From an uncultured Bacteroidota bacterium (GTDB lineage Bacteria > Bacteroidota > Bacteroidia > UBA4408), in assembly GCA_903842515.1 (NCBI GenBank), contig CAIMMJ010000132.1:1-33808 (forward strand): DNA of 33,808 nucleotides. The letters are read 5' to 3'. The notes under the pieces were generated by a model. The model was given only the letters and a program-made list of their open reading frames with translations. It was not told where the DNA came from and did no database searches. The first letter of the stretch is position 1, and each line of letters starts with the position of its first letter. Below, one piece after another: positions 2,003 to 32,493 of the stretch. A program made the position numbers and the translations under genes.

Positions 2003-2555
2003 GGTGCTCTGCACCTTTTTTGTTTTTCTATTTAATATTTTACAGAGGTTTCGCGACTGTGTCGCTAAAATAATTATTTTATTTCTAATTAATTTGCAGT
2101 GCTCTGCACCTTTTTTATTTTTGCTTAATCTGCTACAAAGGTTGGGCGACTATATCGCTACATTTTTATTTTCAATTCTATCTTTGTTGCGGTGCTCTGC
2201 ACCTTTTTTGTTTCTCTATTTAATATTTTACAAAGGTTTCGCGACTGTGTCGCTACATTCACTGCAATTAACTAGATATTATAATTTTTCTATTGCGGTG
2301 CTCTGCACCTTTTTTGTTTCTCTATTATATATTCTGCAAAGGTTTCGCGTCTATGTCGCTAAATTCATTTCAATTAACTAGATATTATAATTTTTCTATT
2401 GCGGTGCTCTGCACCTTACTTGTTTCTCTATTTAATATTCTACAAAAATTACGCGACTATGTCGCTAAATTGTTATTTTTAATTCTATCTATTTTTCGGT
2501 GCTCTGCACCTCTCTTCTTTTTGTGTTTTTAGCAATTTGTAGCAACTCTGTAGCT
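2003..2555. repeat. Array of six ~95-106 bp units, each with hairpin A (GGTGC-TCT-GCACC) and hairpin B (GCGAC-TRT-GTCGC) ~50 bp later
   Basis: A hairpins at 2003, ~2098, 2191, 2297, 2403, 2498; B hairpins at 2053, 2146, 2241, 2347, 2453 and a decayed copy at 2541-2555. Conserved spacer 'CTTTTTTGTTTCTCTATTTAATATTTTACAAAGGTTTC'. Confidence 0.92.
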
Positions 2556-2603
2556 AAAAAAATACAACACTTATCTTAGCTGTTTAAATATTGAATTCTA
2601 CAT

Positions 2604-3911
2604 TCAATGCTTTATACCATACTTCTGAGAATACCTGTGGTACAATTCTTTTTGATGATTATTTAAATCAATAGTTCTTCCATCAATAAATGCTTGCTCT
2701 ACATTGTTGGTCATCATATCTAGTGCATTGCCGGTGGATATAAAAAGCGTTGCACTCTTGCCTACTTCAATAGACCCATATTTCTTATCAATACCTATAA
2801 TTTTTGCAGCATTAATTGTAATTGCACACAGTGCCTGCTCCGGCTCTAAACCATAAGCCATTGCAGTGCCTGCTAAAAAAGGCAAATTCCGTAATCCCAT
2901 TGCTTCCATATCGCCTTCGTATTGCAAACAAAATAATATGCCCTCTTTTTGAAGAAGTGCAGGAAGTTTATAAAAATAATCTATATCTGCGTCGGCATTG
3001 GGTGGCAATGAATGAGCTCTCTGCAGCATCACCGGCACATTAAATTTCTTGAGTATTGAAATTGCTTTTTTTGATTCTGCCCCACCTACAATAACCGGTG
3101 AAACAATTTCTAATTTTTTACACATAGAAATGGCATCGTATATTTGATTGTAACGCTGAGCATGTACGTACAATTTTTTTGAACCATCAAACAAGCCCTT
3201 TAATGCCTCTAGTTTTAAATCTTTTTCTTGCGTTCCTGAATAGTTTTTTGCTTTTAACAATAAATCAATTAATGAATTTATTCTTTTTACATAACTATTT
3301 CCTTTTTCAGATTTCTCTTTTGCATCTTTATCATCTGAATTAAAATTAGGAGAATCTATGTCTGGCCAATTAACATGTATTCCGTCGGCAGATTTTATTA
3401 AAGCATCTTCGTAGTTCCAGGCATCCAAATTTAATATTGAGGAAGCACCGCTTATAAATCCACCTCGTGGAGTTGATTGAACAACCAAAATACCATTGCT
3501 CCTTACCGTTGGTATAACTTTTGAATCTGTAAAAAAAGCAATAGATGAATTTGCATTTGGATTTATTGAGCCCACCTCATACAAATCGTTTGTTGCTCTT
3601 ACTGCTTCAATTTCTGTTAGCCCAAGTGAGTTATTTGTTGCAATTATTCCGGGATAAACGTGTTTTCCACTTGCATCAATAATGTTTGTACTTGCAGAAA
3701 CTGTAGCTTGATTAAATTGTGTACCAATCTCTTTGATAATACCTTTATCAAATACTACAAAAGCATTTTCAATAATTTTTCCATTGCCAACGTGTAGTAT
3801 TGCATTTTTAATTACTACCTCATTCTTTTGCTCAGCTGCAGGTGTTGGTCTTTGAGAAAACACAAATGAATTTACAACTAATACAAGTGCTATTGTTATA
3901 TTCTTAATCAT
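2604..3911 (-). CDS. Amidohydrolase-family protein (imidazolonepropionase-like), secreted, degenerate metal site
   Basis: 435 aa, signal peptide; amidohydrolase layout 'IKNAILHVGNGKIIENAFVVFDKGIIKEIG...YPGIIATNNSLG...AITINAAKIIGIDKKYGSIEVGKSATL'. Confidence 0.8.
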   Translation of the reverse strand: MIKNITIALVLVVNSFVFSQRPTPAAEQKNEVVIKNAILHVGNGKIIENAFVVFDKGIIKEIGTQFNQATVSASTNIIDASGKHVYPGIIATNNSLGLTEIEAVRATNDLYEVGSINPNANSSIAFFTDSKVIPTVRSNGILVVQSTPRGGFISGASSILNLDAWNYEDALIKSADGIHVNWPDIDSPNFNSDDKDAKEKSEKGNSYVKRINSLIDLLLKAKNYSGTQEKDLKLEALKGLFDGSKKLYVHAQRYNQIYDAISMCKKLEIVSPVIVGGAESKKAISILKKFNVPVMLQRAHSLPPNADADIDYFYKLPALLQKEGILFCLQYEGDMEAMGLRNLPFLAGTAMAYGLEPEQALCAITINAAKIIGIDKKYGSIEVGKSATLFISTGNALDMMTNNVEQAFIDGRTIDLNNHQKELYHRYSQKYGIKH

Positions 3912-19319: not shown

Positions 19320-20591
19320 ATGTTATATTATTTATTTGACTATTTACATACAAATTTTGATCTACCGGGCTCTGGGGTTTTTCAATACATTTCTTTTAGA
19401 GCAGCTATGGCATTAATTTTTTCTTTGATTATATCATTGTTGTTTGGCAAACGTATAATTTCTTACCTGCAAAAAAAACAGGTTGGAGAAACCGTTAGAG
19501 ATTTAGGCTTAGAAGGACAAATTTCTAAGCAAGGCACTCCAACAATGGGAGGTTTAATAATTCTTGCAGCCATACTTATTCCAACACTACTGTTTGCCAA
19601 AATAAACAATTCATACATTATTTTAATGCTTGTATCCACTGTTTGGCTGGGAATAATTGGATTTATCGACGATTACATAAAAGTATTTAAAAAAGACAAA
19701 CAAGGATTAAAAGGAATTTTTAAAGTAATTGGGCAAGTTGGATTGGGCTTGCTGGTTGGAGGAATTTTATACTTCAATCCAAACATTGTTATTAAGGAAA
19801 AGATTATAAATGCAACAGAAATTTCTTTCGACGAAGGCGAACTTTTTACCAAAGATGTAAAATCTGATAACTTGCCTAAGTACAAATTAGAAACAGAAAA
19901 ATCTACCAAAACAACAATCCCTTTTGTAAAAAACAATGAATTTGATTATGCAAAATTAATTTCGTGGCTTGGCGATGATTATGCCAAATATGCCTGGTTA
20001 ATTTTTATTCCCATTGTAATTTTTATTGTAACAGCTGTTTCTAACGGAGCTAACATGACCGATGGATTAGATGGATTGGCAACAGGAACATCGGCAATTA
20101 TTGGTGCCACTTTAGCAATTTTTGCCTATGTATCGGGCAATACAATTTTTGCACACTACCTAAACATTATGTACATACCAAACGCAGGCGAACTCGTGGT
20201 TTACATCATGGCATTTGTTGGTGCTTGCGTGGGTTTTATGTGGTACAATTCATACCCCGCACAAGTATTTATGGGAGACACCGGCAGTTTATCTCTGGGA
20301 GGAATTATTGCAGTTTTTGCACTAGCAATTAGAAAAGAATTATTGATTCCTATTTTATGTGGAGTTTTTTTAATAGAGAACTTATCTGTTGTAATGCAAG
20401 TAGCCTATTTTAAAAGAATGAAGAAAAAATTTGGTTTAGAACATGCCAAACAAAACAGACTTTTTAAAATGGCACCGCTGCATCATCACTACCAAAAATC
20501 TGGATACCATGAAGCAAAAATAGTAACAAGATTTTGGATTGTAAGTGTAATGCTTGCCGTAATTTCTATTGTAACACTTAAGCTCAGATAA
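19320..20591 (+). CDS. mraY: Phospho-N-acetylmuramoyl-pentapeptide transferase MraY
   Basis: 'GTPTMGGL', '[18 protein letters not shown]', '[12 protein letters not shown]', '[12 protein letters not shown]', '[15 protein letters not shown]'. Confidence 0.97.
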
Positions 20592-20596
20592 TAAAG

Positions 20597-21937
20597 ATGA
20601 ACAAACAAAAAGTAGTCATTTTAGGAGGAGGAGAAAGTGGAACGGGCTCTGCTATTTTAGCTAAGACCAAAGGATATGACGTATTTTTAAGTGACGCGGG
20701 AAGCATTAAAGAAAATTACAAAAAAGAACTTTTAGAAAACGAAATTCAGTTTGAAGAAGGCAAACACTCACAAGACATTATTCTTTCTGCAAGCCTTGTA
20801 ATAAAAAGCCCGGGTATTCCTGATAAAAATCCACTACTACTAAAAATAAAAGAAAATGGAATTGCAATAATTTCTGAAATAGAATTTGCAGCACAATTTA
20901 CTACTGCTAAAATTATTGGAATTACCGGAACTAATGGAAAAACCACCACAACATCTCTTGTTTATCATATATTAAAAAAAGCAGGATTAAATGTTGGTTT
21001 GGGCGGAAACATTGGAAAAAGTTTTGCACGACAAGTAGCAGAAAGTAACCACGATTACTATGTTTTAGAATTAAGCAGCTTTCAGCTGGACGGCATGTTT
21101 AATGCAAGAATACACATTGCTATTTTATGCAACATAACGCCTGATCATTTAGACAGGTACGACTACAAACTAGAAAATTACATTGACTCCAAATTTCGCA
21201 TTACTCAAAATCAAACTGCCCAAGATTATTTTATTTATTGCATTGACGATGAAATTACAACTTCTTGGATGGCAAAAGTTAAAGGCCAAGCCATACAAAT
21301 TCCAATAAGTATAAAAAAAGAGCTAAGCCAAGGAGCTTACTTAAAAGATAAAACCATCCATTTTAATATAACCCAAAACCCATTTACCATGTCAATTGAC
21401 GATTTAGCATTACAAGGCAAGCACAATGCCTACAACTCTATGGCCGCAGGAATATCGGCAAGAGTTCTGGAAATTCGTAAAGAAATAATTAGAGAAAGTC
21501 TTTCCGATTTCGAAAATATTGAGCACCGTTTAGAATTTGTTGCTAAAATTAATGGAATAGATTTCATTAACGACAGCAAAGCTACTAACGTAAATTCTAC
21601 CTGGTATGCCTTAGAAAGCATGCAATCTCCAACAGTTTGGATTGTTGGTGGTCAGGACAAAGGCAACGATTACGACATGCTTTTAGATTTAGTGAAAGAA
21701 AAAGTAAAAGCTATTGTTTGCCTTGGTGTAGATAATTCCAAAATTATTAGTGCATTTAGCAAAGCAATTCCAAACATAGTAGAAGCACAAACTGCTGATG
21801 CTGCTGTGCAAGCCGCCTATAGAATTGCTAAAAAAGGCGAAACTGTTTTACTTTCACCAGCATGTGCAAGTTTTGATTTATTCGAAAATTACGAAGACAG
21901 AGGAAGACAATTTAAACACGCCGTTCGAAGACTATAA
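20597..21937 (+). CDS. murD: UDP-N-acetylmuramoyl-L-alanine--D-glutamate ligase MurD
   Basis: '[19 protein letters not shown]', 'ELSSFQLD', 'HRLEFVAKINGIDFINDSKATNVNSTWYAL', 'GGQDKGNDY', 'LLSPACASFDLFENYEDRG'. Confidence 0.97.
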   Translation: MNKQKVVILGGGESGTGSAILAKTKGYDVFLSDAGSIKENYKKELLENEIQFEEGKHSQDIILSASLVIKSPGIPDKNPLLLKIKENGIAIISEIEFAAQFTTAKIIGITGTNGKTTTTSLVYHILKKAGLNVGLGGNIGKSFARQVAESNHDYYVLELSSFQLDGMFNARIHIAILCNITPDHLDRYDYKLENYIDSKFRITQNQTAQDYFIYCIDDEITTSWMAKVKGQAIQIPISIKKELSQGAYLKDKTIHFNITQNPFTMSIDDLALQGKHNAYNSMAAGISARVLEIRKEIIRESLSDFENIEHRLEFVAKINGIDFINDSKATNVNSTWYALESMQSPTVWIVGGQDKGNDYDMLLDLVKEKVKAIVCLGVDNSKIISAFSKAIPNIVEAQTADAAVQAAYRIAKKGETVLLSPACASFDLFENYEDRGRQFKHAVRRL

Positions 21938-21947
21938 TTTATAAATT

Positions 21948-22478
21948 ATGGACAAGAAAATAGAAAAATCTAAATCTCTTAAAGAAAACTTTCTCACAAA
22001 AAGAAAAGATATTCTTAAAAGTTATTTTGAATCTGAAAAAAATAACGAACACCAGTTAGAAAATCTTGGCGAAATAAATGGAGTTGTTTTTATTAACGAT
22101 TCACATAGCGTTGATATAGATAAAACATGGTATTCTTTAGAAAAAACAGAAGCACCAATAATTTGGATTGCAGGGGGTGTAAATAAATCTAATGATTATT
22201 CTATTTTAAAAGGAATTGTAAAAGAAAAAGTAAAAATGATTGTTTGCTTGGGCAACGACGACATTAATATTGTAAACGGTTTGCACAAGTACGCACAACT
22301 AATTATTAATGCAATTAACATAAATGATGCAGTTAAAACTGCTGTAAAATTTGCTGCTCAAGGCGATGTTGTTTTGTTTTCGCCGGCTTGCCCCAGCTAT
22401 GATAAATTTGAAAACTATCAAGAAAGAGGGAGAGCTTTTAAGGCCGAAGTAGAAAAACTTAAATGGGGAGGTTTATAA
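21948..22478 (+). CDS. Stand-alone MurD C-terminal-domain paralog (no ATP-binding central domain)
   Basis: 176 aa; 'INGVVFINDSHSVDIDKTWYSLE', 'WIAGGVNKSNDYSILKGIVKEKVKMIVCLG', 'VVLFSPACPSYDKFENYQERGRAFK' align to the C-terminal third of the adjacent MurD; no GTNGKTT motif; intact ORF 10 bp after murD and 12 bp before ftsW. Confidence 0.9.
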   Translation: MDKKIEKSKSLKENFLTKRKDILKSYFESEKNNEHQLENLGEINGVVFINDSHSVDIDKTWYSLEKTEAPIIWIAGGVNKSNDYSILKGIVKEKVKMIVCLGNDDINIVNGLHKYAQLIINAININDAVKTAVKFAAQGDVVLFSPACPSYDKFENYQERGRAFKAEVEKLKWGGL

Positions 22479-22490
22479 TTTTTTTAATAA

Positions 22491-23675
22491 ATGGACTTTT
22501 TTAAAAATAATATTCACGGCGATAAAGTAATTTGGGCAGCAGTAGTAATACTCACTTTACTTTCTACTCTTGTTGTATATTCCTCAACAAGTGCCTTGGC
22601 ATTAAAATACCAGGGTGGCAATACCGAATATTATTTACTTAAGCACGTGTTTACCTTAGCTTTTGGGTTATTGCTAATGGTGGGTACGCACAAAATAAAA
22701 TTTCACCTATTCTCAAGATTTTCTCAAATAGCATTTTTCTTTGCCATTCCTCTTTTACTCTATACCTTAGTTAAAGGGCCCGATATAAACTCTGCCAGCA
22801 GATGGATACAACTTCCTGTTATTAATTTAACCTTTCAAACTTCCGACTTTGCAAAGCTTGCCATTATAGCTTTTACGGCAAGGCAACTAGCAAAAAAGCA
22901 AAATCTATTAGACAATTTTAAAGAAGGTTTTTTACAAATTGTTTGGCCAGTAGTATTGATTTGCGTTTTAATTTTACCGGCAAATTTTTCTACTGCGGCT
23001 GTTTTATTTAGCACTTGCTTCATTACAATGTTTTGCGGAAGAGTTCCATTCAAATTTTTATTAGGCCTGGTTGGAATTGGAATTGTAGGTATCTTAATTA
23101 TTCTTTTGGTAGGAAATTTTGCACCTAAAGTTTTTCCTCGTTTTGGAACTTGGGTAAAAAGAATAGAGAATTTTTCTGGAAAAGAAGCGCCAAACTCAAA
23201 AGGCAGTTTCCAGCCCGATCAAGCAAAAATAGCTATTGCTACCGGCGGAGTTTTGGGCAAAGGACCCGGTAAAAGCATCCAGCGAAATCAGCTTCCTCAC
23301 CCCTATTCCGATTTTATTTACGCAATTATTATTGAAGAATACGGCTCCACTTTTGGACTATTTATTATTTTACTGTACCTCATTATCTTATTTAGAGGGC
23401 TAAGAATTTCAAATAAATGCAACAATACATTTGGCTCTCTTCTATCATTTGGCCTCTCGTTTGGACTGGTATTTCAGGCCATGGTAAACATGGCAGTTGC
23501 AGTTAATCTTTTTCCTGTAACGGGTCAACCCTTGCCGATGCTGAGCATGGGAGGAACTTCTATTTGGTTTACTTCTATTTCTTTGGGCATCATTTTAAGT
23601 GTTAGCAGAGAGCTTGAAAAAGAAGAGAAGTCTGCAGAAAACAACAACAGCACGGAGGGCTTAGTATATGCTTAA
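22491..23675 (+). CDS. ftsW: SEDS-family peptidoglycan glycosyltransferase FtsW
   Basis: Polytopic; 'SASRWIQLP', 'PHPYSDFIYAIIIEEYGSTFGLF', 'FPVTGQPLPMLSMGGTS'. Confidence 0.96.
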   Translation: MDFFKNNIHGDKVIWAAVVILTLLSTLVVYSSTSALALKYQGGNTEYYLLKHVFTLAFGLLLMVGTHKIKFHLFSRFSQIAFFFAIPLLLYTLVKGPDINSASRWIQLPVINLTFQTSDFAKLAIIAFTARQLAKKQNLLDNFKEGFLQIVWPVVLICVLILPANFSTAAVLFSTCFITMFCGRVPFKFLLGLVGIGIVGILIILLVGNFAPKVFPRFGTWVKRIENFSGKEAPNSKGSFQPDQAKIAIATGGVLGKGPGKSIQRNQLPHPYSDFIYAIIIEEYGSTFGLFIILLYLIILFRGLRISNKCNNTFGSLLSFGLSFGLVFQAMVNMAVAVNLFPVTGQPLPMLSMGGTSIWFTSISLGIILSVSRELEKEEKSAENNNSTEGLVYA

Positions 23676-24768
23676 AGCCATTATTAGCGGCGGTGGCACC
23701 GGAGGACATATTTTTCCTGCACTTGCCATTGCAGATAAAATAAAAGAAAAATACCCCAATGCAGAAATAATTTTTGTGGGAGCTAAAGGGAAAATGGAAA
23801 TGGAAAAAGTTCCTGCTGCCGGCTACAAAATTATAGGACTAGAAATAGCAGGGTTTCAAAGAAACTCTATGCTAAAAAATTTATTTCTTCCTTTTAAGAT
23901 CATTAAAAGTATACTAACGTCCATCTCTATTATTAATAACTACAAACCTAGCTTTGTTATTGGTGTTGGCGGATATGCCAGTGGTCCACTGCTATTTGCA
24001 GCTCAGCTAAAAGGGATTCCTACATTTATTCAGGAGCAAAATTCTTTCCCGGGAATTACAAATAAGCTTCTTTCAAAAAAGGTTAAAAAAATTTGTGTAG
24101 CCTACCCAAACCTGGATAAATTTTTTCCGGCCAGCAAAATAGTTCTTACAGGAAATCCAATCCGCAAAGACATTTTAAATTTAAAGTCAAAAAAAGAGAT
24201 CGCTATTTCGCACTTTAAGCTTAACCCTAATTTATTTACGGTATTTATTACAGGTGGCAGCTTAGGCGCAAGAAATATAAACTTGGCTGTAAAAAATAAT
24301 ATTCAAGCCTTATCAAAAATGCCAATAGAAATAATTTGGCAAACTGGTAAATTATTTTTTGAAGAAGCAAAAGAAACCGTCTTAAAAAATGAAGTAAAAA
24401 ATATTTTTGTTTATGAGTTTGTAAAAGAAATGGATTTAGCCTACTCAGCCGCTAAACTGGTAATTTCAAGAGCAGGTGCAGGAGCTATTTCTGAATTATC
24501 TGTTGCAAACAAATGCTGTGTATTAGTTCCTCTGCCATCGGCAGCAGAGGATCACCAAACACAAAATGCAAAATCTCTTTCTAGCAAAAATGCAGCTATA
24601 CTTATTTCTAACGATAATATTTTAACCGAGATAACAACTGTTATTCAAAAACTAATGAACAACAATAATCTGGTTTTAGAAATGGAAAAAAACATTGCAG
24701 AATTTGCAAAACCCAACGCAGCCGAAGAAATAGTAAACGTAATTACTAATGAACTAAAAATTGGATAA
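23668..24768 (+). CDS. murG: UDP-GlcNAc:undecaprenyl-PP-MurNAc-pentapeptide GlcNAc transferase MurG
   Basis: 'ISGGGTGGHIFPALAIAD', 'GVGGYASGPLLFAA', 'QEQNSFPGITNKLLS', 'TGGSLGARNIN', 'ISRAGAGAISEL'. Confidence 0.97.
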   Translation: MLKAIISGGGTGGHIFPALAIADKIKEKYPNAEIIFVGAKGKMEMEKVPAAGYKIIGLEIAGFQRNSMLKNLFLPFKIIKSILTSISIINNYKPSFVIGVGGYASGPLLFAAQLKGIPTFIQEQNSFPGITNKLLSKKVKKICVAYPNLDKFFPASKIVLTGNPIRKDILNLKSKKEIAISHFKLNPNLFTVFITGGSLGARNINLAVKNNIQALSKMPIEIIWQTGKLFFEEAKETVLKNEVKNIFVYEFVKEMDLAYSAAKLVISRAGAGAISELSVANKCCVLVPLPSAAEDHQTQNAKSLSSKNAAILISNDNILTEITTVIQKLMNNNNLVLEMEKNIAEFAKPNAAEEIVNVITNELKIG

Positions 24769-26143
24769 GAACATAAAAAATATTTTCTTTTTAGGTATTG
24801 GTGGAATTGGAATGTCTGCTTTGGCCAAATATTTTCATGCAAAAGGTTATATAGTTTCTGGATACGATAAAACCAGCACTCCTCTCACAAAATCTTTGGA
24901 GCAACAAGGAATAAAAATTCATTATAACGATACTGAGAATAATATTCCTAACGAAATAAAAAACAATTCGCTCCAAAGTCTAATTGTAATTACACCTGCA
25001 ATCCCTAAAGAAAGTATAGAGCTAAACTTTTTTTTACAGAATAATTATACCGTTATAAAAAGAGCTGCCATCTTAGGTGAAATTACAAAAGGTGCAAACA
25101 CAATTGCAGTAGCAGGAACACATGGAAAAACTACAACCTCTACTCTTGTTGCACACCTTATGAAGGAAGGAGAAGTGGATTGCAGCGCTTTTTTGGGAGG
25201 CATCTCCTCTAACTTCAATTCTAATTTACTTATTGGCAAAGACAACTGCGTGGTAGTGGAGGCCGACGAATACGACAGGTCGTTTTTAACGTTATCGCCA
25301 AACACTGCTATTGTAACTTCTGTTGATCCGGATCATTTAGACATATACCATGAACACAAAAACTTAAAAGAATCGTTTGAATTATTCACAGAAAAAATTC
25401 TTGCAAACGGAAATTTAATAGTTAAGCTAAACCTGGATTTTACAACACGAGAAAATAATTCAGTAAAAAAATACACCTACAGCATCAGTGGAAAATCAGA
25501 TTTTTTTGCAAGCGACATCCAATTAAAAAATGGATTATATTTTTTTACGCTAAATACACCTTCCGGAAAAATTGAAAATCTGGAGTTAGGAATGGCAGGT
25601 TTGCACAACTTAGAAAATGCTATCGCTGCTTCTGCAGCGGCCCTTTTAAATGGCATTTCTGGAGAGAATCTAAAAATTGGTTTAAAAACATTTAGTGGAG
25701 TAAAAAGAAGATTTGAATACATTTTTAGAAATGAAAAACTAGTATACTTAGACGATTACGCTCACCATCCCCAAGAATTATTAAAATGTATAGAATCTGT
25801 AAAAACAATTTTTCCGAACAAAAAAATAACCGGAATTTTTCAGCCTCATTTATTTTCTAGAACAAGAGATTTTATGGATGATTTTGCCAAGTCATTGTCC
25901 TTGTTAGACAAATGTATTCTACTTGATATTTATCCGGCTAGAGAAATTCCTATTCCAGGCATAACTTCAGATTTGTTGTTAGCTAAAATAACCTCTCCGG
26001 TAAAAGAGAAAATGTATTTAAACACCATTGTAAATGAGCTTAATTTTTTAGATGCAGAAGTTTTACTTACTCTTGGTGCAGGAGATATAGATACAATAGT
26101 TGAACCAATAAAACAGGAATTAATTAATTATTTTAAAAATTGA
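24761..26143 (+). CDS. murC: UDP-N-acetylmuramate--L-alanine ligase MurC
   Basis: TTG start, 8-bp overlap with murG; 'FLGIGGIGMSALAKYFHAKGYIVSGYD', 'AVAGTHGKTTTSTLVAHLM', 'VEADEYDRSFL', 'DDYAHHPQEL'. Confidence 0.97.
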   Translation: MDKNIKNIFFLGIGGIGMSALAKYFHAKGYIVSGYDKTSTPLTKSLEQQGIKIHYNDTENNIPNEIKNNSLQSLIVITPAIPKESIELNFFLQNNYTVIKRAAILGEITKGANTIAVAGTHGKTTTSTLVAHLMKEGEVDCSAFLGGISSNFNSNLLIGKDNCVVVEADEYDRSFLTLSPNTAIVTSVDPDHLDIYHEHKNLKESFELFTEKILANGNLIVKLNLDFTTRENNSVKKYTYSISGKSDFFASDIQLKNGLYFFTLNTPSGKIENLELGMAGLHNLENAIAASAAALLNGISGENLKIGLKTFSGVKRRFEYIFRNEKLVYLDDYAHHPQELLKCIESVKTIFPNKKITGIFQPHLFSRTRDFMDDFAKSLSLLDKCILLDIYPAREIPIPGITSDLLLAKITSPVKEKMYLNTIVNELNFLDAEVLLTLGAGDIDTIVEPIKQELINYFKN

Positions 26144-30678: not shown

Positions 30679-31194
30679 TTGACACTGGATCTGCACAATA
30701 AAAAATGGCATGTTTTAGTTACTCATCCCAGAGCTGCAAAGAAAGTTGGAATGAGATTGTCTGAAGTTGAAATTGAAAATTTTGTACCTCTACAAAAACA
30801 GCTCAGGCAGTGGCACGATAGAAAAAAATGGGTAGATGTTCCACTTTTTAGTTATTATATTTTTGTTTACATAAGCACTAAAAAAAGACACGAAGTATTT
30901 CAGATAATGGGGATAACAAAATTTCTTTCAATAGATGGTAAATTAAGCACAATTCCTACAGAGGAAATAGAAAGAATAAAGAGACTTTGCTCTTATGCAG
31001 GCAAAGTTAAAGTAGAACAAGGAATATTAAATATTGGCGACGAAGTTGATATTATGGAAGGACATTTTATTGGACTGCGGGGTCAAGTAATAAATTCCAA
31101 CGACAATAAAAAAATTAGAATTTCAATTCCCTCATTAAATTGTTCTGCAACAGTTTTGCTCGACAAAAATAATGTTCAAAAAATATTTGTTTAA
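30679..31194 (+). CDS. UpxY/NusG-like transcription antiterminator
   Basis: 'KKWHVLVTHPRAAKKVGMRLSEVEIENFVPLQKQLRQWHDRKKWVDVPLFSYYIFVYI' NGN domain and C-terminal KOW-like 'GDEVDIMEGHFIGLRGQVI'; apparent TTG start. Confidence 0.9.
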   Translation: MTLDLHNKKWHVLVTHPRAAKKVGMRLSEVEIENFVPLQKQLRQWHDRKKWVDVPLFSYYIFVYISTKKRHEVFQIMGITKFLSIDGKLSTIPTEEIERIKRLCSYAGKVKVEQGILNIGDEVDIMEGHFIGLRGQVINSNDNKKIRISIPSLNCSATVLLDKNNVQKIFV

Positions 31195-31413: not shown

Positions 31414-32493
31414 ATGGATATAAAAGCCAACATAATAAAGCATAAAAACGAGAGTCGTATTGCGGTTCAATTTCCAATAAACAATGAACTCAATCAAAGA
31501 TTTAAAATGCTTGATGGTGCAAAGTGGAGCAGAACATTAAAGGTTTGGCATTTGCCTGATAATCTAGAAAACAGAATAAAATTTCACATTCCCGAAACAG
31601 AACAAAAAACTATAAATCCTAACAACAAAATAATTCTTTCGCAACCAGTAGATGTTCAGTTGGCAGAACACATTACAAAGTTCAAAAGATGGTTATTAAG
31701 CAGGCGATACAGTCCAAACACAATAAAAACATACAGTGAAGCATTGGCAGTTTTTCTAAATTATTACAAAGAAAAATCAGTTAACGAAATAACAAATAAC
31801 GATATTATTGCATTTAACAATGATTATATCATCGCAAAAAAGTTATCATCTACTTATCAAAATCAGATGGTTAATGCCATTAAATTATTTTATTCAAAAA
31901 TTCAAGACACCAAAATAAATGTACAATTAATTCACAGGCCAAAGATTGCAAAAGTTCTTCCAAATGTTTTAAGTAAAGAAGAGGTAAAGGAATTATTGGA
32001 GAAGCCAACAAATTTAAAGCACAAAGCCATGTTGTGTTTAATATACAGTTGCGGATTAAGGAGTGGCGAATTATTGAGTTTAAGGATGGAGGATGTTGAT
32101 TCAAAAAGAAATTTATTACTAGTAAAATTAGGCAAAGGAATGAAAGACAGAATAGTTCCTTTGAGTCCAAGAATACTTGATATTTTGCGTGAATATTACA
32201 AAGCATACAAGCCGCAGAAATATTTATTTGAAGGGCAGATTAAGGGTGAGCGGTATGATGAGAGAAGTTTACAAAAAGTATTAAAATTTTCTTTAGCCAA
32301 AACAAAAATAAAAAAGCCGGTTACATTGCATTGGCTCAGACACAGTTTTGCAACCCATCTTCTTGAAGGTGGAACAGACCTAAGATTTATTCAAGAAATA
32401 TTAGGACACAGTAGCAGCAGAACAACAGAAATTTATACACATGTGAGCACAAAAAGCATTCAAAAAATTATTTCACCATTCGACACACTCTAA
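31414..32493 (+). CDS. Tyrosine recombinase/integrase (XerC/D-like catalytic domain) with extra N-terminal domain
   Basis: 'YSCGLRSGELLSLRMEDVD' (Arg I), 'HWLRHSFATHLLEGGTDLRFIQEILGHSSSRTTEIYTHVS' (HxxR, GH, Tyr); SAM-like core-binding 'FKRWLLSRRYSPNTIKTYSEALAVFLNYY'. Confidence 0.95.
   Translation: MDIKANIIKHKNESRIAVQFPINNELNQRFKMLDGAKWSRTLKVWHLPDNLENRIKFHIPETEQKTINPNNKIILSQPVDVQLAEHITKFKRWLLSRRYSPNTIKTYSEALAVFLNYYKEKSVNEITNNDIIAFNNDYIIAKKLSSTYQNQMVNAIKLFYSKIQDTKINVQLIHRPKIAKVLPNVLSKEEVKELLEKPTNLKHKAMLCLIYSCGLRSGELLSLRMEDVDSKRNLLLVKLGKGMKDRIVPLSPRILDILREYYKAYKPQKYLFEGQIKGERYDERSLQKVLKFSLAKTKIKKPVTLHWLRHSFATHLLEGGTDLRFIQEILGHSSSRTTEIYTHVSTKSIQKIISPFDTL

Follow-up and report, generated by a model that had tools for sequence, protein, structure and literature searches.

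PAR, a stand-alone paralog of MurD domain 3 encoded between murD and ftsW in Bacteroidia

The dcw cluster is among the best-studied bacterial gene clusters. In MurD, the hinge at residues 294-304 contains P300, H301, R302 and E304, and R302, which touches an ADP phosphate, is the handle for the rotation of domain 3 (PMC4816537), while K348 together with T321, and S415 together with F422, hold the two carboxylates of glutamate-like inhibitors (PMC3527612). MurG binds MurD, MurE and MurF and has been proposed as their scaffold (PMC6420597). In a search that most subscription papers lay outside of, we found no relevant paper on a truncated or second MurD, on murD2 or on a gene between murD and ftsW. 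Here we describe such a gene from a 33,808-nucleotide stretch of Bacteroidota DNA (the whole stretch is called the window below). Its product, a stand-alone MurD domain-3 paralog that we call PAR, belongs to a new family of domain-only Mur ligase paralogs, for which we propose, with a probability of about 50%, a role as a non-catalytic binding or regulatory subunit in a precursor-synthesis complex, the partner and the effect being what we infer.

A MurD domain-3 protein in an ordinary dcw cluster

PAR is encoded on the forward strand of the window, at 21948-22478, by an intact ORF with an ATG start and a product of 176 residues. The gene lies 10 bp downstream of murD (20597-21937, forward strand), a complete, parent-type copy with all the active-site residues checked, and 12 bp upstream of ftsW (22491-23675, forward strand), its constant downstream neighbour; mraY (19320-20591) precedes and murG and murC (23668-26143) follow on the same strand in the same dcw run. 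The gene order in the window is mraZ-mraW-ftsL-ftsI-murE-mraY-murD-[ORF]-ftsW-murG-murC-ftsQ-ftsA-ftsZ, names being given by sequence resemblance with the exception of the Mur ligases, and the cluster, extending from mraZ (13876) to ftsZ (30024), is otherwise ordinary, in keeping with the initial annotation of an intact, tightly spaced ORF within a canonical dcw operon. PAR is the sole stand-alone Mur_ligase_C protein in the genome of the window. Translations read by eye also showed a NusG/UpxY-type antiterminator-like protein just downstream of ftsZ (30679-31194), a tyrosine recombinase-like protein further on (31414-32493) and, at 1514-1990, a small transposase-like ORF of the IS200/IS605 TnpA (REP-associated) type.

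The initial annotation had read this ORF as a paralog of MurD domain 3 only, and sequence comparisons bore this out. In a single BLASTP comparison with the adjacent MurD, PAR aligned without gaps to residues 291-446, with 72 identities in 156 residues (46%; E 3e-49); the NCBIfam murD model TIGR01087 matched PAR at model positions 297-440 only (E 6e-38), with 131 bits against a cut-off of 212, and Pfam Mur_ligase_C gave 25.9 bits, slightly under its cut-off of 28.4. As had also been proposed, by Pfam PAR has neither the UDP-binding N-terminal domain (MurD_N or MurD-like_N), which is present in the adjacent MurD, nor the P-loop ATPase middle domain (Mur_ligase_M, GTNGKTT). Because the UDP-MurNAc and ATPase domains are missing, PAR alone cannot be a ligase.

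AlphaFold2, run on PAR with 39 aligned sequences (pLDDT 85.6, pTM 0.80), modelled a helix at residues 2-28 (21948-22031, forward strand) followed by the domain-3 fold, and Foldseek with this model placed MurD structures at the top (7u35, E 7e-12, 2.2 A over 143 columns), followed by other Mur ligases, so that PAR is a Mur ligase domain 3 in sequence as well as in fold. From residue 16 onwards the N-terminal helix aligns with the helix that leads, in MurD, to the hinge between domains 2 and 3, and residues 16-33 as a whole match the stretch of MurD that immediately precedes and then enters this hinge (LEIRKEIIRESLSDFENIEH). The new N-terminus, originally put at some 55 residues, is thus really about 15 residues long.

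Distribution across Bacteroidia

A first search covered 38 genomes of the class, many of which had a second, stand-alone match just after murD. We then ran a profile search of 155 class genomes, with 63 families sampled, and read the loci. The PAR family was defined as stand-alone domain 3 proteins of about 155-215 residues whose gene lies on the strand of murD and ftsW, directly between the two, a description that fits the window copy. A contig-start MurD fragment (L108) and a frameshifted MurD (L105), both of which resembled PAR when listed automatically, were removed. PAR was found at the same place in 17 of the 63 families sampled: in the loci read, the order was murD-PAR-ftsW in f1, f4, f5, f9, f10, f12, f13 and f22, and likewise in f25, f29, f31, f36, f40, f42, f44 and f53 (family codes are labels internal to this analysis), and PAR-ftsW without murD in f55. 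Stand-alone orthologs between murD and ftsW in related Bacteroidota, the first check suggested for this locus, therefore exist, and an assembly error joining a murD fragment is contradicted by independent assemblies with the same order, including two single-contig genomes (G118 and G144), both PAR-positive. We also considered, and rejected, a MurD in two pieces with PAR as the provider of domain 3, since MurD is complete in every PAR-bearing locus where it was readable.

The PAR-bearing named records are MAGs designated as Bacteroidia, Bacteroidota or Flavobacteriales bacterium (L104, L135, L142, L154, L170), and no PAR was found in named records of Flavobacteriaceae, Sphingobacteriaceae, Chitinophagaceae, Spirosomataceae, Prolixibacteraceae or Rikenellaceae. 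Outside the class, no stand-alone copy turned up in 90 genomes from the phylum's other classes, save for an 88-residue piece at a contig end. Within a single genus, PAR is present in one genome (G028) and absent from four others (G068, G101, G129 and G154), and it is absent as well from G001, a member of the window's own family. Because of these losses, PAR is dispensable, which counts against the role proposed below.

PAR always lies directly upstream of ftsW, or of a small ORF that precedes ftsW. In f12, the two genes are separated by a small ORF of about 65-90 residues that has a single hydrophobic stretch, probably spanning the membrane (L070, about 2490-2710, reverse strand; L029, about 2510-2770). 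Two genomes have dcw clusters broken, independently, directly after murD, with opposite fates of PAR: in G083 (L210/L211), the cluster on contig 1 stops at murD, with PAR immediately ahead of ftsW on contig 2, and in G001 (L224) the cluster is interrupted after murD by an MBOAT-type acyltransferase-like gene and PAR is gone. The constant position by ftsW, kept in G083 though murD is elsewhere, would fit a role in the divisome unrelated to MurD chemistry, in which PAR would be an FtsW-side factor, e.g. a cytoplasmic partner of FtsW or MurG, that reuses the fold, as a Mur ligase fold has been reused by PAP11/MurE-like in the plastid RNA polymerase (8ras_Q; PMC9456514). We regard this as an unlikely alternative to a subunit of the precursor machinery, given that it is one split cluster only that points to it, that the position of the break may be chance, and that in G001 a break at the same place went with the disappearance of PAR.

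Families f4, f44 and f55 encode, outside the dcw cluster, a second stand-alone relative of MurD domain 3, PAR2, which is more degenerate (genomes G010, G116, G089, G050 and G083; 179-205 residues from the first Met; loci L205:5983-6522, L206:5995-6597, L207:6017-6556 and L208:5971-6588). PAR2 retains the hinge helix (EIRKDIIRESLSDI in f4), but EHR, K319 and the NYxxRG loop are gone. Its neighbours in f4 and f44 are unlike those in f55 and gave no clear functional clue.

Active-site residues, selection and descent

E. coli numbering was anchored by a PDB alignment (query 34-165 to chain 300-430 of 1e0d) and by published papers. In the window PAR, H35, Q36, E38, N50 and D51 correspond to H301, R302, E304, N316 and D317 of E. 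coli MurD, and H53, V55, K80, S150 and Y157 to K319, T321, K348, S415 and F422. The positions R302, D317, K319, T321, K348, S415 and 422 are therefore occupied by Q, D, H, V, K, S and Y, and the change of NDSKATN in MurD to NDSHSVD, read from the sequence in the initial annotation, is confirmed; the full domain-3 catalytic set K319, T321, R302 and K348 is lacking in the window copy, which has H, V, Q and K. Among MurDs, 98-99 of 99 sequences had the expected residue at each active-site position checked (Y or F at 422). Among 46 PARs, the original residue was kept at R302 in 27, at D317 in 37, at K319 in 25, at T321 in 33, at K348 in 9 (R in 11, an acidic residue in many) and at S415 in 41, with an aromatic residue at 422 in 41, whereas H301, E304, N316, P411 and G426 were present in 46 of 46. 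The losses of R302, K319, T321 and K348 fall in different PAR families, the MurD of the same genomes keeping these residues, and all seven checked residues are kept only in f12 (4 of 5 PARs), at least one having been lost in every PAR elsewhere. Since the catalytic residues vary while the hinge and structural residues are invariant, what selection preserves is not chemistry but the fold of PAR, its hinge segment and much of the surface facing the central domain. The catalytic lysine is gone from the window copy, but loss of K319 is not general in the family, more than half of which keeps K, so that the chief ground for the earlier label of pseudoenzyme is the absence of the ATPase and UDP domains.

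PARs keep most of the D-Glu pocket, and PAR might be a ligand sensor that binds D-Glu or a nucleotide through the retained half-pocket and reports precursor supply to MurD or FtsW. The frequent S415 and aromatic residue at 422, which in MurD hold one inhibitor carboxylate (PMC3527612), agree with such a sensor; we nevertheless consider it improbable, as the partner of T321 in holding the other carboxylate, K348, is seldom kept, the ADP phosphate contact R302 is lost in 19 of 46 PARs, and PAR2 is without nearly all of the pocket. Quite improbable, too, is that PAR serves as a swappable acceptor domain, joining MurD's N-terminal and ATPase domains in trans and altering substrate or kinetics: the retained hinge segment and active-site face, and the f12 PARs with all seven residues, would allow it, but MurD always has a complete domain 3 of its own and every PAR outside f12 is deficient in at least one of the seven.

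To return to what selection acts on, dN/dS was calculated from Nei-Gojobori counts for pairs with estimable synonymous change, several of them with dS >1 and hence rough. In close pairs from families other than the window's, PAR dN/dS was 0.013-0.31, and it was well under 1 in at least 14 unsaturated pairs. PAR and MurD values were 0.056 and 0.10 for L019/L062, 0.014 and 0.09 for L070/L071, 0.156 and 0.05 for L023/L142, and 0.28 and 0.31 for L026/L092. PAR was more constrained than MurD in f12 (0.013 vs 0.15), and evolves faster than MurD overall (mean distance 1.17 vs 0.44). Consistently with the selection suggested at the outset, for which dN/dS had been the proposed check, these values indicate that PAR is under purifying selection where it is kept.

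Domain-3 trees were built on 139 columns. Without a root, PARs and MurDs were split by one branch (SH-aLRT 89, 133 rows), which had a support of 88/91 and occurred in 93% of bootstrap trees when 64 rows were used. With 10 MurDs from other classes as the root, one clade (100/97) held all 42 C-domains of class MurDs and none of the 22 PARs, which argues for an old duplication, with the caveat that PARs are long branches, possibly drawn towards the outgroup; a single PAR clade was not rejected in this rooted set (AU p 0.39). Even PARs from distant families share derived residues absent from MurD, namely F144 (an invariant L in MurD), S63 (A in MurD), A122 and A136. PAR distances track those of FtsW, MraY and the MurD N/M domains (Mantel test, 0 of 2000 permutations as high), and the presence or absence of PAR requires at least 10 changes on the dcw tree. 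No tree showed a PAR and the MurD from its own family as sisters. Forcing PAR and own-family MurD together lowered lnL by 20-47, and the AU test on the 139 columns gave p values of 0.004 for f10, 0.066 for f1, 0.082 for f22, 0.125 for f5, 0.134 for f12 and 0.174 for f36; a family-specific origin of each PAR is disfavoured, f10 alone being formally rejected. These results are best read as one old event, at or near the root of the class, in which the 3' third of murD was duplicated, followed by mainly vertical descent and repeated loss. The competing view of a decaying tandem duplicate or assembly artefact without function, raised in the initial annotation, could draw on the patchy presence and the fast evolution of PAR, but is, for the family, highly improbable in the face of orthologs in 17 families and in single-contig genomes, ORFs intact at every locus, low dN/dS and deep branching.

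In f12 (L029, L065, L070, L071 and L072), the rate of evolution of MurD is several times that of PAR, and in trees the MurD domain 3 groups, with weak support, beside a Spirosomataceae MurD. It is possible that murD of this family was replaced by transfer and the old PAR retained.

Proposed role and related systems

In our preferred reading, PAR would act non-catalytically, as a binding or regulatory subunit of the cytoplasmic machinery for precursor synthesis whose genes surround its own. That PAR would work by binding is suggested by the missing nucleotide and UDP domains, by its position between murD and ftsW, and by a fold and surfaces kept without the chemistry. Making contact through its hinge helix and the preserved active-site face, PAR may dock at MurD's own domain-3 site on the MurD central domain, or on a membrane-side partner, candidate membrane partners of MurD being MurG, MraY and FtsW; as an outcome, MurD activity would be tuned, or MurD would be tethered to the lipid II/FtsW site. 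In an AlphaFold2 model of an artificial MurD-PAR read-through fusion (L135, stop read as G, 625 residues), both parts folded, with a pTM of 0.70 and a low-confidence linker, and no PAR-FtsW or PAR-MurD gene fusion was seen in the loci read. A mirror-tree test of rate coupling gave no preferential coupling to MurD or FtsW (partial r about 0.1 with either, and 0.44 with MraY, a short fragment). More tentatively, domain-only MurD paralogs might have coupled MurD-stage synthesis to lipid II/FtsW since about the origin of Bacteroidia, and have been lost in Flavobacteriaceae, Bacteroidales, Sphingobacteriaceae and Chitinophagaceae, the cultured model groups.

A conserved extra member of the dcw cluster that derives from part of an enzyme both essential and targeted by drugs would be a sign of an unseen step of control or coupling in peptidoglycan precursor synthesis, one that model organisms have not shown. 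Moreover, a natural domain-3 paralog, which may compete for or extend the contacts of MurD, would provide a handle on the membrane-near organisation of Mur ligases, and might show how MurD could be disturbed by way of its moving domain.

TIGR01087 matches each of the 16 PARs scanned, the window copy lying under the curated Pfam and NCBIfam cut-offs, and no NCBIfam or Pfam model names PAR. The closest described protein is MurD itself, with which PAR shares, besides nearly half of its aligned residues and the modelled fold, H301 and E304 of the hinge and N316, S318, S410, P411, R425 and G426 of the loops; PAR differs in the absence of the UDP-binding and P-loop ATPase domains, in its variable catalytic residues, in a TIGR01087 score far from the cut-off and in being a separate old lineage that stands beside a complete MurD. 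PAP11/MurE-like of the plastid-encoded RNA polymerase is likewise a Mur ligase relative turned complex subunit (Foldseek matches 8ras_Q and 9epc_Q; PMC9456514), but it is MurE-derived, eukaryotic and part of a transcription complex, and not a domain-only dcw protein. By analogy, PAR resembles mycobacterial CwlM, a homologue of a peptidoglycan enzyme (amidase) that acts as a cytoplasmic regulator of MurA (PMC4946905), although CwlM has an unrelated fold, is not a paralog of the enzyme it regulates and is controlled by phosphorylation. Finally, the MurG scaffold, which unlike PAR is an active glycosyltransferase and has its own gene here, offers a precedent for MurD in a membrane-near complex (PMC6420597).
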